Virus record (IMG/VR): IMGVR_UViG_3300046171_000159
Coordinates: 1-28,401 of that record
DNA: 28,401 nt
Direction: 5' to 3' (one strand)
DNA from: a virus
The notes below the pieces were generated by a model. That model was given only the letters and a program-made list of their open reading frames with translations, was not told the origin of the DNA and ran no database searches. Position numbers and translations under genes: made by a program. Below, piece after piece: positions 5,124-20,381 of the stretch (the stretch's first letter is position 1; each line of letters starts with the position of its first letter).

Positions 5124-8100
5124 ATGCCCCAGGAAACTAATCTTAATGTAGCTCCTTATTTTGACGACTTTGATCCGCAAAGTAACTACTATAAGGTTCT
5201 ATTCAAACCAGCATACCCAGTTCAAGCTAGAGAACTAAACAATCTTCAATCGATTCTTCAGAATCAGGTTGAGGATATGGGTCAGCACTTCTTTAAGGAA
5301 GGTGCTAAAGTTATTCCAGGTCAATTAACATACCTGAGTAATTATTATGCTATTCAGATTGAACCTGAGTATCTTGGTGTTCCTGTTGCATTGTATCTCG
5401 ACCAACTGATTGGTAAGTTGATTGTTGGACAACAGTCGGGTGTGACTGGAAGAGTAAGTTCATATATTACAAACGAACAATCGGAGAGAGGAAACTATAC
5501 TCTCTATGTTGACTACTTTGAGTCATCAACAACTGATGCTGCTACACAAACATTCTTTGATGATGAGGTTCTTCTCACCACAGAGAATATTACTGTTTGC
5601 AACTACCTTTATCGGGGCTAATGAAGGTTTTGCTAAGGCACTGACTACAAATGCTAGTGCAACTGGTAGTGCATTTGCACTGAGTAATGGTGTATATTTC
5701 TTAAGAGGGACATTTTGTTGATGTATCTGATCAGATTCTGATTCTTGATCAGTATAACAATAGACCAACTTATAGAATTGGTCTAAGTGTTAATGAGAGT
5801 ATTGTATCTTCTGATGAAGATCCTACACTTACAGATAACGCTCAAGGATTTAATAATTATACAGCACCTGGTGCTGATAGATTTAAGATTTCTGCAACTT
5901 TATCCAAAAAAGGATCTGATGATTATGATGATCAGAACTTTGTTCAATTGGCAGAAGTTCAGAATGGCATTCTGAGAGAAATTAATAGTGGAACAGATTA
6001 CAATATCCTAGGTGATGAATTAGCTAGAAGAACATTTGATGAGTCTGGTCATTATTATGTTCGTGACTTCCTTACTACCGTTCACGACAGTTTGAATAAT
6101 GGATATGGAAATAGAGGTATCTACAACTCTAATCAGGTAACACTTCAGGGAAATACTCCTAGTGATGATCTTGGTATCTACAAGATTTCTCCAGGTAAGG
6201 CTTATGTCAGAGGATATGAGGTAGAAGTTAGAGGACCAACTTTCCTTGATTTTGAGAAACCAAGAACTACCAAGCTCAGAGAAGGTAGTTCGATTCAATT
6301 CTCCTTTGGTCCATCATTCCAAGTCAATAGAGCCTTTGGTTCTCCTGTTCTTGGATTTGATACCTGACAATGTTATCAGTCTCAGAGATACTAGAGTTGG
6401 AGATGACCCCACGGTTACTCCTGGTAAAGAAATTGGTGTCGCTAGATTCTACGATGCAGCTCTAGAATCTGGTTCATATGACAATGTATATCCTAATACT
6501 AATAGATGGGATGTATCCCTGTTTGATTTGCAAGTCTACACTGAATTAGAACTCAATGAGGCTGCAACTTTAACCACTCCAACCTTTATTGAAGGTAAGT
6601 CTAGTGGTGCAACAGCTTATTTGAGACATCCCCATTAGTGCTGGAACAGCTCTTACCGCATATTGTGTTCAGGGTGACTTCTTCACTGGTGAAAAACTAG
6701 AATTTAATGGTGTTTCTGATAATTCCTAGAAGCAGCAGTAGGTGTTCATAACTTTGAAATCTCTGATGTTCAGTCACTTTATACACTTGTAGGTGCTGCT
6801 GGTACATATACAGCTGACATTATCCCTCAGGTAACTGAAGTAATTGGTATTGCATCAATTACAGCTCACCATAGTGGTATTTCGACCATAAATTCACCAG
6901 GAACAGCATGGCCTGGTATTGTTACTACTGGAAATCTTGTTCAGTTCTCTATTCCAACTAATGATTTTCCAAGTTTGGCTAGAGTTACACAGGTAAATAC
7001 CAATTCCATCCAAGTTAGTGGTGTTACTACTATTACGGCTTACCGTGAGGGTGGTCTTCCTACTACTTTGACTGACAGTCAGTGACTTCTCAGTTGTTAA
7101 GAGCTAGTCTTCAGAGAACAAGTGGAGGCAATTCAGCTGATAATGAGTCACTTTACAGCTTGATGCCCGATCTAAACATTGAATCCACTAATTTAGATAA
7201 CGCAAACCTCGTTATTAGAAAGGGATTTAGTGTAAATATCACAAATAACTCAACTGGAGCTATTGCGGCTGGTCCAAATGAAGTATTCTTACCTTTCGAT
7301 GAAGAAAGATATACTTTAGTTCGTTCTGATGGTTCTATTGAAGTATTGACACAGGACAGATTCGTATTTGCTTCCGGTTCTACTCAACTTACGATTAATG
7401 GTCTGGGTTCTAACAATACTGGAGCTCAACTAACAGCTACTTTGAGAAAAGCGAAGGTAAAGGCAAAGGTAAAATCTAAAAAAGAAGCTCAATCTGTAGT
7501 TATTTCAAGATCTAATGATAGTAGCTCTGGAACTACAGTAAATACTCTTAACGATGGACTAACTTTTGGCAACTTCCCATTTGGAACTAGAGTTCAAGAC
7601 TCTATCATCTCTTTGGGTGTTCCAGATGCTATGATACTTTATGGTGTGTTTGAATCACTGGACGGAAATGATCCACAAGCACCAAGTATGACAACCTGCG
7701 TCACTTGATGGTCCAAATAATACAACAAATGACCTTATTATTGGTGAAGAGCTTGTTGGTAGTATTAGTGGAGCTAGAGCTAAGTATATTACTAAGAAAT
7801 CCGATACAAGTATTAACTTTATCTACGAAAATACCTCAAAATTTGAGACTGGAGAAGTTATTAGCTTTATTGACTCTGGTGTGAGTGCTATTGTTGCAGA
7901 TTTGGCTCTGAACAGCACAAATGTTACCAAAAACTTCAAATTCCAAAGTGGACAGAGGAGTACAATTTATGATTTCTCAAGAATCGTAAGAAAAGAAGAA
8001 AGTGCAGTTCCTACAAGAAGATTAAGAGCATATTATCTCTCAGCTGAGTATGATCCATCAGACACTGGTGATATTACTCTGGTTGACTCATATAATTCAT

Positions 8101-16736: not shown

Positions 16737-17069
16737 ATGGCTACCCCGTCAGTCAATATTGTTATACCACAAGCTTCTGATTTTAGTTTTACATACATCT
16801 CTAAAAATTCTGATGGAAGTCTGAAGAATTTGAATGGTTTTACTGGAGAGTCAAAGTTGAAGAAACATTCAACTTCTTCAACATCCCATTCCTTTACTGT
16901 TGGTATCAATACCATCACATCTGTGGTATCTCTTGCCATGACTTCTGGTGTATCTGTAAATATTAAATCAGGAAGATATCTTTATGATGTAAGAATCACA
17001 TCAACTGGTGGTTCTGTAGAAAGAATTCTTGAAGGAACGGCAGAAGTCACAGCAGGAATCACTACTTAA
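16737..17069 (+). CDS. Small virion structural protein, possible Ig-like/BppU-like fold
   Basis: This 110 aa protein starts at an ATG 17 bases after a late box; no strong Shine-Dalgarno is visible. The sequence is short beta strands throughout: NIVIPQASDFSFTYISKN at the start, and SGRYLYDVRITSTGGSVERI followed by LEGTAEVTAGIT at the end. The final pattern (tolerated-gradient Tyr-Asp-Val, then a 'G-x-x-x-V-T-x-x-I/V-T' strand) resembles the N-terminal domain of phage baseplate/fibre adaptor proteins such as BppU, a fold-level guess rather than a demonstrated homology. It opens the fibre cassette between gp16 and gp17, so an adaptor for the 1,080 aa fibre encoded next is plausible. Confidence 0.75.
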   Translation: MATPSVNIVIPQASDFSFTYISKNSDGSLKNLNGFTGESKLKKHSTSSTSHSFTVGINTITSVVSLAMTSGVSVNIKSGRYLYDVRITSTGGSVERILEGTAEVTAGITT

Positions 17070-17138: not shown

Positions 17139-20100
17139 ATGTCTAACGAAGACCTGCCGTCAATAAATGATATAGTAGAAGAGAGCAATTTGCCCTCTTA
17201 CAAAGATTTTATCGAAGTTAAACAGGAAGAGGAACTTCCTTCTGTTGAGGAATATATTGAAGAGAAAGTTGTAGATACTTTAGAAGAAGAAGATATTGAA
17301 ACTGTTTTATCAGAAACTGCTCCAGAGTGGTCGGAATTAGTACGCCTTGTAAATGATGTAAGAAAGGATATACCGGAAATACCGGAGATCAAGTATTATG
17401 ATGAGCAACTAAAAGAATTAAGTGATAAACTATCACAAATTCAAGATTTAAATGAAGATAAACTAACTGAAATTGAATCAAAAATACCTGAGATTCCAGA
17501 GGTCAAGTATTATGATGCAGATATTCAATTCATTTATGATAAGATTGGTCGTATAAAGGAAGAAATCAATTCTCTTCCAGAAGTAAAATATTATGAGAGT
17601 GATCTCAATTCATTAAAATCAAGAATTGAAGAAGTAAATCAAAGTATTCCTACATTTCCTGACTGGGTTCAGGAAGTTCAAGAAGTTCCAGATTTCTCTT
17701 GGATTGGTAAAACTTTCAGTATAATCGATGATGACTTTAATAAGGTTCAAGGACACCTTGATCTTATCAGAGAAAAGATTGACTATCGTGTCAATGAATT
17801 AAACGACACTATTGCAACTAAAGAATTTGAGCTAAAGATAGATGTAAAAGATCTTACTAAGAATTTTGATCAAACGGTTGTAAATCTTGAAGAAACAAAA
17901 GATAAACTCCTTAAGCAAGTTAGAGATGTTTCTACTAGAATTTGGGAACAACATAATGAGTTTAAAGATGATGATAGAAAATTAAAAAAATCTATCATAA
18001 GTGAGCAGAATAAACTAAAACAATCTCTCCAAGAACAGATAAAAGAGATTGACACTCAAAGTGTAAAGGCTGACGAAGCTCTTTTAAAGTTTTTCAATGA
18101 TCTTAATGAAGAAGTAAAATCACTTCCTGAAGTTAAGTATTATGATACTGAAGTATCTAATATTGTAGAAGATATTGATTCTCTAAAAGTCAATATTGAA
18201 GATATTAGAAATATTGTTTCTTTAATCAAAAAAGATCAAAAAGAATTAAAAGAACTAAAGGAAAATTATTTACTAAACGAACCACCAGACGAAAAAGAAA
18301 GTGTTGGTTCTGGTGTTGATCCACTCACTCCGATGGATCAAAAGTTTGCTACTTTAGATGATCTATCAAATCACTATAGAATCTTCATCAATCGTATTCA
18401 AACTCAACTTTCCACAATGGGTGGTGGTGGAGCAGGATTCATTAAGGATCTTGATGATGTAACATTTGATCAAACAACAGGAAATAATAAACTTTTAATT
18501 TACAACTCAGAAATATCTAAGTGGGTTGGAATTGGTAGTGATGAATTCAATGCTGTTGGTGCTGCTGGAACTTGGGGTGTTGATTCTGTTGGAATTCATA
18601 CTGCAAAAGTTGTTGGTATCAATACAACATCTGCAAAGTCTGGTGTTGCTCTTTTTGTTTCTGGCAATATTGAAGCAACTGGAAATGTGACCGTTGGTGG
18701 AACTATCACATATGATGATGTAAGACATGTAGATTCCCTCGGTCTTTCGACATTCAGAAGTGGTCTTGAAGTCAATACAGGAACAGCGACAACCGCACTT
18801 TTAGTTCGTGGTGATGCAAGAATTACCGGTATCCTCACTATTGGTACTGCATCTGTCACTATTGATGGTGACAATAATACCATCACAACTGGAATTGTTA
18901 CCATCACCAATTCAGAAGTTACCATTGGTGATAATGTAAGAATAAATGCCGGTGCAACAGGTATCAACTCTGCACCAAACGTATTCTATGTTGCTAAAGA
19001 TGGTAATGATTCTAATAACGGAACATCTATTGATAATGCTAAATTGACTATCGTTGGTGCAGTTGGTGTTGCACAATCTGGATCTGTTATCAAGGTACTT
19101 TCGGGCAACTATGTTGAGAGTAACCCAATCGTAGTTCCTGCATTTGTAGCGATTGTTGGTGATGATCTGAGAAGTTGTAAGGTATTACCAAATAATGTTA
19201 CACAAGATCTATTCCATGTCAATAAGGGATGTAAGTTGGCAAACATGACCTTCTCTGGTCATACTGCTCCTGCAGCTGCAGTCGCATTCCCGACATCAGG
19301 TGCGACCAATGTTGGTGGCGGAAAGTGGAAAGGTCCATATATCCAAAACTGCACTAGTGACACAACCACTGGAACTGGTATCCTAATTGACGGAGATAAG
19401 GCAGTCAAAACCAAATCGATGAATGTTGATGCATTTACCCAATACAATCAGGGAGGGGTTGGAGTTGCTGTTACCAATGAAGGATACGCTCAGTTAGTTT
19501 CCGTATTCACAATTTGTTGTGATAAAGCAATAACTGTCCACAAAGGTGGTCAAGCTGATGTTGCTAATAGTAATTGTAGTTTTGGAACATTTGGATTAGT
19601 TGCTGATGGTGTGAGTCCTCAACAGTATACTGGTGTTGTGACAAGTTCTGGAGCAGCTGGTCAAGATAATATTGTAATTAACGTTGGTGCTGTCACAACC
19701 AGACCATATGATGGTCAGGTAGTTTACTTTGATCAACTCTATAAGTCTGTAAAATCAATTACAATTACGAATGGTGGAAGTGGATATACATCTACTCCAT
19801 CGGTTACGATTGTATCCCCCACAGGTCCAAATGGAGAGGTAGCTACAGCGTTTGCCACCTTAGAAGGTGGTGTGGTGACTGAGATTACTATTATAAGTAG
19901 TGGAAGTCAATATACAGAAACCCCAGCTGTCACTATCTCTGCTCCTGATTCGGGTACAAATGCTACTGCAACATCAGTTATATCAGATACTTATTTCACG
20001 ATAAATAGCTCGACTCCTATCACCGCTGGTATAACTACATTAACACTTGCTGAAAATCTACTCAACACAGTGGGGGTAGCATCTACGGCATACTTCTTCC

Positions 20101-20381
20101 AACAAAGTAAAATCATCGCTAGTTCTCATACCTTTGAGTATATCGGTTCTGGTAATGACATCACTACGGCAACACCTAAGAGAGGTGGTGTTACGATCCA
20201 AGCAAACGAAGTTGTATCTACAAATGGGGGTAATGTAATCTATACCAGTACTGATCAGTCTGGTAATTTTAGAATTGGTGATGACTTCCAAATCAATCAG
20301 GCAACAGGAACAGTTAGTGGAAGAGCATTCTCCAAGAGTTTGTTCTCAGAAATGACCCCCTTCATTCTAGCACTTAGTTAA
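17139..20381 (+). CDS. Long fibre-like structural protein: coiled-coil shaft, beta repeats, pectate-lyase-like helix
   Basis: This 1,080 aa protein is intact. Residues 1-75 are acidic with LPS(V/I)xxY/I segments. Residues 78-375 form a long charged coiled-coil shaft, punctuated by four copies of a P-E-(I/V)-K-Y-Y-(D/E) motif (about 78-88, 116-126, 146-154, 329-336). A Gly run (MGGGGAGFI) leads to beta repeats like those of marine phage fibres (430-610). Residues about 613-830 look like a right-handed beta helix of the pectate-lyase type (NVFYVAKDGNDSNNGTS, then SGSVIKVLSGNYVESNPI). Two SGYT-type repeats follow (about 868-950). The C-terminus (STDQSGNFRIGDDFQINQAT, then FSKSLFSEMTPFI) matches a recurring cyanophage fibre end, from memory. 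A trimeric adhesin is the likely role. No catalytic residues for lyase activity can be assigned, and binding rather than cleavage is the safer reading. The next ATG follows its stop without a gap. Confidence 0.85.
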   Translation: MSNEDLPSINDIVEESNLPSYKDFIEVKQEEELPSVEEYIEEKVVDTLEEEDIETVLSETAPEWSELVRLVNDVRKDIPEIPEIKYYDEQLKELSDKLSQIQDLNEDKLTEIESKIPEIPEVKYYDADIQFIYDKIGRIKEEINSLPEVKYYESDLNSLKSRIEEVNQSIPTFPDWVQEVQEVPDFSWIGKTFSIIDDDFNKVQGHLDLIREKIDYRVNELNDTIATKEFELKIDVKDLTKNFDQTVVNLEETKDKLLKQVRDVSTRIWEQHNEFKDDDRKLKKSIISEQNKLKQSLQEQIKEIDTQSVKADEALLKFFNDLNEEVKSLPEVKYYDTEVSNIVEDIDSLKVNIEDIRNIVSLIKKDQKELKELKENYLLNEPPDEKESVGSGVDPLTPMDQKFATLDDLSNHYRIFINRIQTQLSTMGGGGAGFIKDLDDVTFDQTTGNNKLLIYNSEISKWVGIGSDEFNAVGAAGTWGVDSVGIHTAKVVGINTTSAKSGVALFVSGNIEATGNVTVGGTITYDDVRHVDSLGLSTFRSGLEVNTGTATTALLVRGDARITGILTIGTASVTIDGDNNTITTGIVTITNSEVTIGDNVRINAGATGINSAPNVFYVAKDGNDSNNGTSIDNAKLTIVGAVGVAQSGSVIKVLSGNYVESNPIVVPAFVAIVGDDLRSCKVLPNNVTQDLFHVNKGCKLANMTFSGHTAPAAAVAFPTSGATNVGGGKWKGPYIQNCTSDTTTGTGILIDGDKAVKTKSMNVDAFTQYNQGGVGVAVTNEGYAQLVSVFTICCDKAITVHKGGQADVANSNCSFGTFGLVADGVSPQQYTGVVTSSGAAGQDNIVINVGAVTTRPYDGQVVYFDQLYKSVKSITITNGGSGYTSTPSVTIVSPTGPNGEVATAFATLEGGVVTEITIISSGSQYTETPAVTISAPDSGTNATATSVISDTYFTINSSTPITAGITTLTLAENLLNTVGVASTAYFFQQSKIIASSHTFEYIGSGNDITTATPKRGGVTIQANEVVSTNGGNVIYTSTDQSGNFRIGDDFQINQATGTVSGRAFSKSLFSEMTPFILALS

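Follow-up and report, generated by a model that had tools for sequence, protein, structure and literature searches.

A recurrent PE[IV]KYY[DE] motif as a probable joint between coiled-coil segments in the shaft of a cyanophage-type tail fibre

The shaft of a tail-fibre-like protein encoded in a 28,401-base virus record, which is probably a fragment and was analysed over its whole length (hereafter, the window), carries four copies of the seven-residue motif PE[IV]KYY[DE]. We propose that this motif serves as a non-helical joint of fixed length, placed where one parallel coiled-coil segment of the shaft gives way to the next, a reading to which we assign a probability of roughly two in three. 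The fibre seems to consist of short coiled-coil rods and a repeated seven-residue break-and-restart signal, a construction that seems to make fibres of adjustable length.

The open reading frame (ORF) of the fibre (17139..20381, + strand; 1080 residues) lies between the genes of the small terminase (gp16) and the large terminase (gp17). The gene order in the window is neck proteins, tail sheath stabiliser, small terminase, a 110-residue ORF, fibre, large terminase, tail sheath and tail tube; these neighbours are of the T4 type, and the terminase profiles were matched within the window. The tail-fibre family phrog_17885 matches the 1080-residue protein with an E-value of 8.5e-146. Its best stretch, residues 722-1079, is the part of the C-terminal half (18432..20378, +) that matches tail-fibre PHROGs, and another of these, phrog_28263, matches the motif region (residues 107-181). 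The tail-fibre profile matches and the order gp15-gp16-fibre-gp17 are those of a cyanophage (Kyanoviridae) tail fibre. SynMITS9220M01, a cultured phage of Synechococcus, shares this gene order and encodes a full-length fibre homologue at 59.5% identity, and in P-TIM68, S-SM2 and Bellamy the fibre gene also comes after gp16, the order being the same up to the fibre gene. Judging by such relatives, the window probably belongs to a T4-like, marine cyanophage. The 110-residue ORF directly 5' of the fibre (16737-17069, +) matches phrog_3304 (L-shaped tail fiber protein assembly; E 5.3e-19) and also phrog_1084, a family of unknown function.

The N-terminal part of the fibre is acidic and contains three LPS-x(4)-[IF] repeats recognisable in the sequence (17154..17261, +; residues 6, 18 and 33), of which L18, P19, S20 and L33, P34, S35 are at least 90% conserved in our fibre alignment A1, described below. 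This part is a probable virion-attachment tail. Exact matches to PE[IV]KYY[DE] were found at residues 82-88, 120-126, 147-153 and 330-336 (nucleotides 17382-17402, 17496-17516, 17577-17597 and 18126-18146), and a looser pattern applied to all six frames of the whole window detected no match beyond those four copies. Given the composition of residues 1-400, 1.2e-5 matches would be expected, for a pattern picked post hoc. The preliminary description, made from the letters of the window, had recognised the same four copies, its ranges for copies 1 and 2 also covering the I-P-E-(I) ahead of the motif; the distances of 28 to 175 residues that it gave were slightly off, since 31, 20 and 176 residues lie between consecutive copies. 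Any two copies differ synonymously in 1 to 3 of their 7 codons. The repeat is thus not a fresh DNA repeat, and it has been kept at the protein level. The shaft has another conserved non-helical stretch at residues 170-186 (17646..17696, +), as judged by conservation in A1 and by the monomer model. This strongly conserved, Trp-containing interruption (A1 consensus IPxFPKWVNEVNEVPDFSWIGKTF) is not of the PE-KYY kind. Residues 394-431 (18318..18431, +) form a conserved collar, DPLTPxDQxFxTxxxLxxHYRxFxxRxQxQLxxxGGGG, which is common to other cyanophage fibres.

We modelled residues 1-431 as a single chain with AlphaFold2, using the 89 rows of A1 (mean pLDDT 68.3, pTM 0.21). From residue 63 onward, the model places helices at residues 63-77, 88-102, 109-114, 126-144, 153-169, 187-328, 336-377 and 406-427. 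All four motifs are non-helical in it, and the helix resumes at residues 88, 126, 153 and 336, which is P+6, the D/E of the motif. Break 1 (I78-P-E-I-P82-E-I-K-Y-Y-D88; 17370..17402, +) is predicted to be non-helical over residues 78-87, and break 2 (I116-P-E-I-P120-E-V-K-Y-Y-D126; 17484..17516, +) includes residues 116-121 with a pLDDT below 50. Break 3 (L146-P147-E-V-K-Y-Y-E153; 17574..17597, +) and break 4 (L329-P330-E-V-K-Y-Y-D336; 18123..18146, +) stand on either side of the long coiled-coil segment of residues 187-328 (17697..18122, +), which is one helix in the monomer model. A second single-chain AlphaFold2 model, of the nine-copy fibre L154 with a three-row alignment, predicted the same alternation at low confidence (mean pLDDT 44.6, pTM 0.16); the helix restarts at P+6 in six of the nine copies and one residue off in the other three. 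A search of solved structures by phmmer with residues 1-434 gave a best E-value of 0.18. With the A1 profile, 21 sequences of solved structures were retrieved at E<=1 (best 0.0011), but they were coiled coils and chance matches, and none was counted as a homologue.

In the segments between motifs, hydrophobic residues recur with 3-4-3-4 spacing at positions 10, 13, 17, 20 and 24 (and 27, 31), counted from the P of the motif, and the P of the next motif directly follows a core residue of the preceding segment. We examined segment lengths in 204 ORFs, in which some contigs appear twice (e.g., L006 and L131) and identical segments were counted once. Of the 193 distinct segments no longer than 45 residues, 187 stop at a heptad core position (a or d) after any (I/L)-P-x triplets have been trimmed, with lengths of 20, 24, 27, 31 or 45; untrimmed, 178 of the 193 fall into this core set. 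Raw spacings of 21, 25, 26, 28 and 29 residues were absent from the 204 ORFs, and among 57 representatives at 70% identity 79 of 85 segments obey the rule. Because the core set was fixed after the 27-residue class had been seen, and the segments are related by descent, we place weight on the pattern rather than on binomial p-values. Six segments are exceptions: the first one of the window fibre and a near copy of it, in which the core is shifted by one in a stutter-like manner, and others from L150, L153 and L154. Segments of 50-58 residues (38 of 231) break the single-helix rule as they stand, so that 190 of 231 obey overall; in most of the examples shown, a decayed motif copy lies in the middle of the segment. 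Copy 4 is preceded by a long interval, of about 180 residues, whose length also changes in steps of 1, 2, 5 and 8, and we therefore claim the spacing rule for short segments only. The four predicted breaks and the spacing rule together support the earlier view that the motif interrupts the coiled coil at set points, instead of lying within a continuous helix.

Comparison of relatives at least 55% identical revealed 23 distinct length changes in short intervals (neither length above 60 residues): 14 by 3, 4 or 7 residues, two by 27, and seven by 6, 10, 13, 20, 23, 25 or 30. A change of 3 or 4 corresponds to one core layer, 7 to a heptad, and 3 also to a Pro triplet. In the nine-copy fibre L154, two units constitute a 66-bp tandem duplication with one base different (5553-5684 of the reverse complement), which represents a recent one-unit extension of the shaft. 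The expectation that spacing changes in whole motif units was thus partly borne out, by this duplication and by the 27-residue steps, whereas the changes are more often of 3 or 4, of 7, or of a Pro triplet of 3.

Downstream of the motif, the hydrophobic phase is constant. We grouped 458 distinct 24-mers by the segment upstream of the motif (first copy, 20, 24, 27, 31, 50-60, 170-215 and other), and the phase was identical in all eight classes, position 20 being weaker (0.6) in the 170-215 class. The core restarts at motif positions 10, 13, 17, 20 and 24 regardless of upstream length. With the core at fixed motif positions, the register would be reset at every joint, and the length of the shaft could therefore vary by core layers, heptads, Pro triplets or whole units while later segments stay in register. 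The same core phase in every spacing class also favours the suggestion in the preliminary description that the motif acts as a register signal. Within the 458 24-mers, position 7 is D/E in all, position 6 is Y in all, although the pattern also permitted F, and position 9 is D/E/Q in 441; the Y at position 5 was set by the search pattern. Cys occupies position 14 (register e) in 91 of the 458 distinct viral segments, as in EAICEQID, and is possibly an inter-chain contact.

A scan of viral contigs with a DNA pattern of the motif returned at least 120 stretches, with 118 loci new in that scan. Among the matches listed, at least two copies stood in one frame at 110 of the 118 loci by a loose pattern, the other eight carrying one, and the dominant spacings were 20, 24, 27 and 31. 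The same DNA pattern returned at least 120 stretches from cellular genomes; among those listed, 75 had no in-frame motif, and 45 stop-to-stop frames contained it (13 of them shorter than 100 residues), each with exactly one copy. Hydrophobic residues at motif positions 10, 13 and 17 were found in 374 of 385 viral occurrences but in only 3 of the 45 cellular single-copy ORFs, again among the matches listed. Those three are two Kosmotogaceae proteins and L216.

Alignment A1 was assembled from ORFs of 380-520 residues that contain the motif, start near an LPS repeat and reach the GGGG collar. In total, 145 ORFs passed and were reduced to 89 representatives at 88% identity, with the window in place of the near-identical L004. 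P82, D88, P147, Y152, P330 and Y335 are invariant in all 89 rows, in part because the rows were selected by the motif; in the same motif-selected rows, the mean majority residue reaches 0.89 in motif columns compared with 0.60 in the rest of residues 60-380. We also collected relatives blind to the motif. With residues 155-325 as the query (relatives 64-100% identical, partly from the same contigs as the earlier scans), copy 3 was present in 38 of 38 evaluable loci. Copy 4 was strict in 28 of 35 and retained KYY in all 35, the seven others reading PQVKYYE or PEAKYYD. A collar query yielded 587 confirmed stretches, of which we took the best 80, ranked by likeness to a near-identical relative and therefore not a random sample; in all 72 fibres that could be evaluated, the number of strict copies was between one and four, and eight loci were cut off. 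Both motif-blind sets represent close relatives and overlap with contigs of the earlier scans. Conservation of the motif in relatives, which had been set beforehand as a test, was thus found, and the interpretation given in the preliminary description is partly supported. An earlier set of 80 loci was rejected as proof of conservation: among its 68 full-length ORFs, 66 contain the scan's own motif peptide, only five a non-motif one and three both.

Several cultured cyanophages have fibres without the motif. S-B05, S-H68, S-SKS1 and B23 share the collar and have no strict motif in the fibre, and P-TIM68, S-SM2 and Bellamy share only the GGGG end of the collar and lack the motif. S-CAM7 has a fibre with two copies and another collar protein with no copy. 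The seven motif-free fibres, with the collar or its GGGG end kept, indicate that the motif is dispensable for a fibre, and that the motif-bearing shaft is one type among several fitted to the shared collar. At the post-gp16 locus of P-TIM68 (L450), S-SM2 (L451) and Bellamy (L452), the short N-terminal part of the fibre leads directly into GGGGEVRLEFLDDV; from these fibres, the shaft looks exchangeable. Inspection by eye revealed another break-like repeat in the motif-free shafts of B23 (L448), S-SKS1 (L447) and S-B05 (L445), approximately P-x-Y-[KR]-x-[LF]-[IV]-x-[ED]-S-[ED]-[LI]-[KR], with several copies in B23.

The closest parallel to the proposed joint is the beta-layer. According to passages of Hartmann et al. 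(2016, PMC4786415), beta-layers of alpha/beta coiled coils are known in phage fibres and in TAA stalks; they come after a or d and continue into e-f-g, where g is D/E/Q. The canonical residues described there are D/N/T/S at beta3, K/R at e and a small residue at beta2, and the insertion is 2 or 6 residues. The motif obeys the position rule in 187 of 193 segment ends and in its constant downstream phase, and the rule for g in 441 of 458 cases. The canonical residues, however, are absent, with Y at beta3 (position 6) and D/E at e (position 7). The motif layer would be K-Y-Y in place of the small hydrophobic centre of beta-layers, and the joint is longer and contains Pro. Segments ending on d (20 and 27 residues) correspond to a +6 insertion, with 10 residues from d to the next a as in beta-layers, whereas segments ending on a (24 and 31) correspond to +3, with a step of 10 instead of the 9 of the beta-layer nonad rule. 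As the position rules are obeyed without the canonical residues, we consider that the motif works like a beta-layer joint, and we do not file it as a member. In the joint that we propose, each helix would continue to a complete core layer, with I/L at a or d, and the chain would leave the helix via Pro into an extended (Phi-P-x)n-Phi-P-E-(V/I)-K-Y-Y stretch. The three fibre chains would cross there in a beta-layer-like triangular plane, and the next helix would begin at the motif D/E, with its core at 10, 13, 17, 20 and 24. We infer the trimer, the beta-layer-like geometry and the role in register and length.

T4 fibritin is also similar: it too is a T4-like phage fibre whose coiled coil is interrupted at intervals, in fibritin by small loops according to a passage of PMC3797505 and in the window fibre as predicted by the monomer model. 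Table 2 of PMC4786415 includes a fibritin row, VQALQEAGYIPEAPRD, in which the C-terminal coiled coil runs into GYIPEAPRD. This resembles IPEIPEVKYYD of the window fibre, both having a Pro-rich I-P-E-x-P after a coiled coil. Unlike those of fibritin, the breaks in the window share one conserved motif and step length, and the gene and its position are different. No Pfam family match to the fibritin domains (N-terminal neck-binding, C-terminal foldon) was found in the fibre at E-values up to 0.1. The Streptococcus prophage tail-fibre hyaluronidase 2C3F, described in part of PMC4786415 as a coiled coil with several beta-layers, one of them Tyr-centred, is a phage fibre like that of the window, but its KAD and VYT layers stand in a hexad tandem, unlike the PE-KYY joints, which are two to three heptads apart.

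In the two Kosmotogaceae motif proteins, an SLH domain is combined with a long coiled coil and a hydrophobic helix at the C-terminus, which is the layout given for Ompalpha in passages of PMC9388160, where two beta-layers are modelled in SlpA. SlpA/Ompalpha stalks, as described there, have a long coiled coil as the fibre does, yet they are tethers of the bacterial envelope, the motif occurs in a single copy, and we noticed no homology with the phage fibre. A match to the Kosmotogaceae protein was found in 91 of 103 genomes of the phylum, and we examined 14 homologues. The two starting proteins each have one copy of PEVKYYD, and so do all eight further close orthologues of at least 72% identity (together L453, L454 and L456-L463, from Kosmotogaceae and near relatives); the four more distant homologues lack it. 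The ten carriers contain beta-layer-like signatures, M[AV]TKxDL in nine and YVTP[DE]QL in all ten. In three distant homologues, the aligned place is beside a K-A-D stretch like the OMP100 beta-layer, in a coiled-coil alignment that is soft. These sequences offer a lead that the same joint may occur in a stalk class with modelled beta-layers.

Could the motif instead be a flexible hinge, a loop that lets rigid coiled-coil rods bend during the search for a receptor? The Pro-containing non-helical breaks between rods in the monomer model fit a hinge, and so do the small loops that interrupt the fibritin shaft (PMC3797505, in part). However, flexible loops tolerate changes of length and sequence, and here a step of 10 residues has been kept and P82, D88, P147, Y152, P330 and Y335 are invariant in A1, partly through selection of the rows by the motif. 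We therefore regard a hinge as unlikely. A binding or processing site appears less probable still. In that reading, KYY(D/E) would offer the neck, a chaperone or some other virion protein a surface to dock on and would be repeated for avidity. The strongly kept tyrosines and charged residues would fit such a surface, and the adjoining 110-residue ORF matches a tail fibre assembly PHROG, but this reading leaves unexplained why segments end on the heptad core, why the downstream phase is fixed, and why the motif recurs in bacterial Ompalpha-like stalks.

It is also conceivable that the copies are merely relics of unit duplication, their role limited to a tolerated helix break, although we hold such simple descent to be very improbable. 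Unit duplication does occur, as the 66-bp duplication of L154 illustrates, and decayed copies exist. Against descent alone stand the synonymous differences between the window copies, whose protein sequence has been kept, the higher conservation of motif columns (0.89 versus 0.60 elsewhere in residues 60-380 of the motif-selected A1), and the retention of the motif by motif-blind relatives. The fixed-length joint between coiled-coil segments thus remains the reading that we prefer.

More tentatively, and with somewhat more doubt than belief, we suggest that PE[IV]KYY[DE] defines its own, unnamed class of beta-layer-like joints and acts as a portable code that would end trimeric segments on a or d and restart them in a fixed register. 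This code would be repeated in cyanophage shafts and perhaps convergent in the Ompalpha-like stalks of Kosmotogaceae. Searches for the motif spellings yielded no relevant paper in the literature searched, apart from three chance matches in the field of optics, in agreement with the preliminary description, which knew of no named motif of this form, and the motif is unmentioned in the titles and abstract openings of the papers listed on coiled-coil motifs and structures of cyanophage fibres. The joint would account for a feature of fibres that are common among viral contigs and for which the few annotated records that we saw say only hypothetical protein or tail fibre. It would also be a candidate sequence module for the design of length-adjustable trimeric rods. 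It would provide a readable rule for building long fibre shafts, which could evolve in length without loss of the coiled-coil register.
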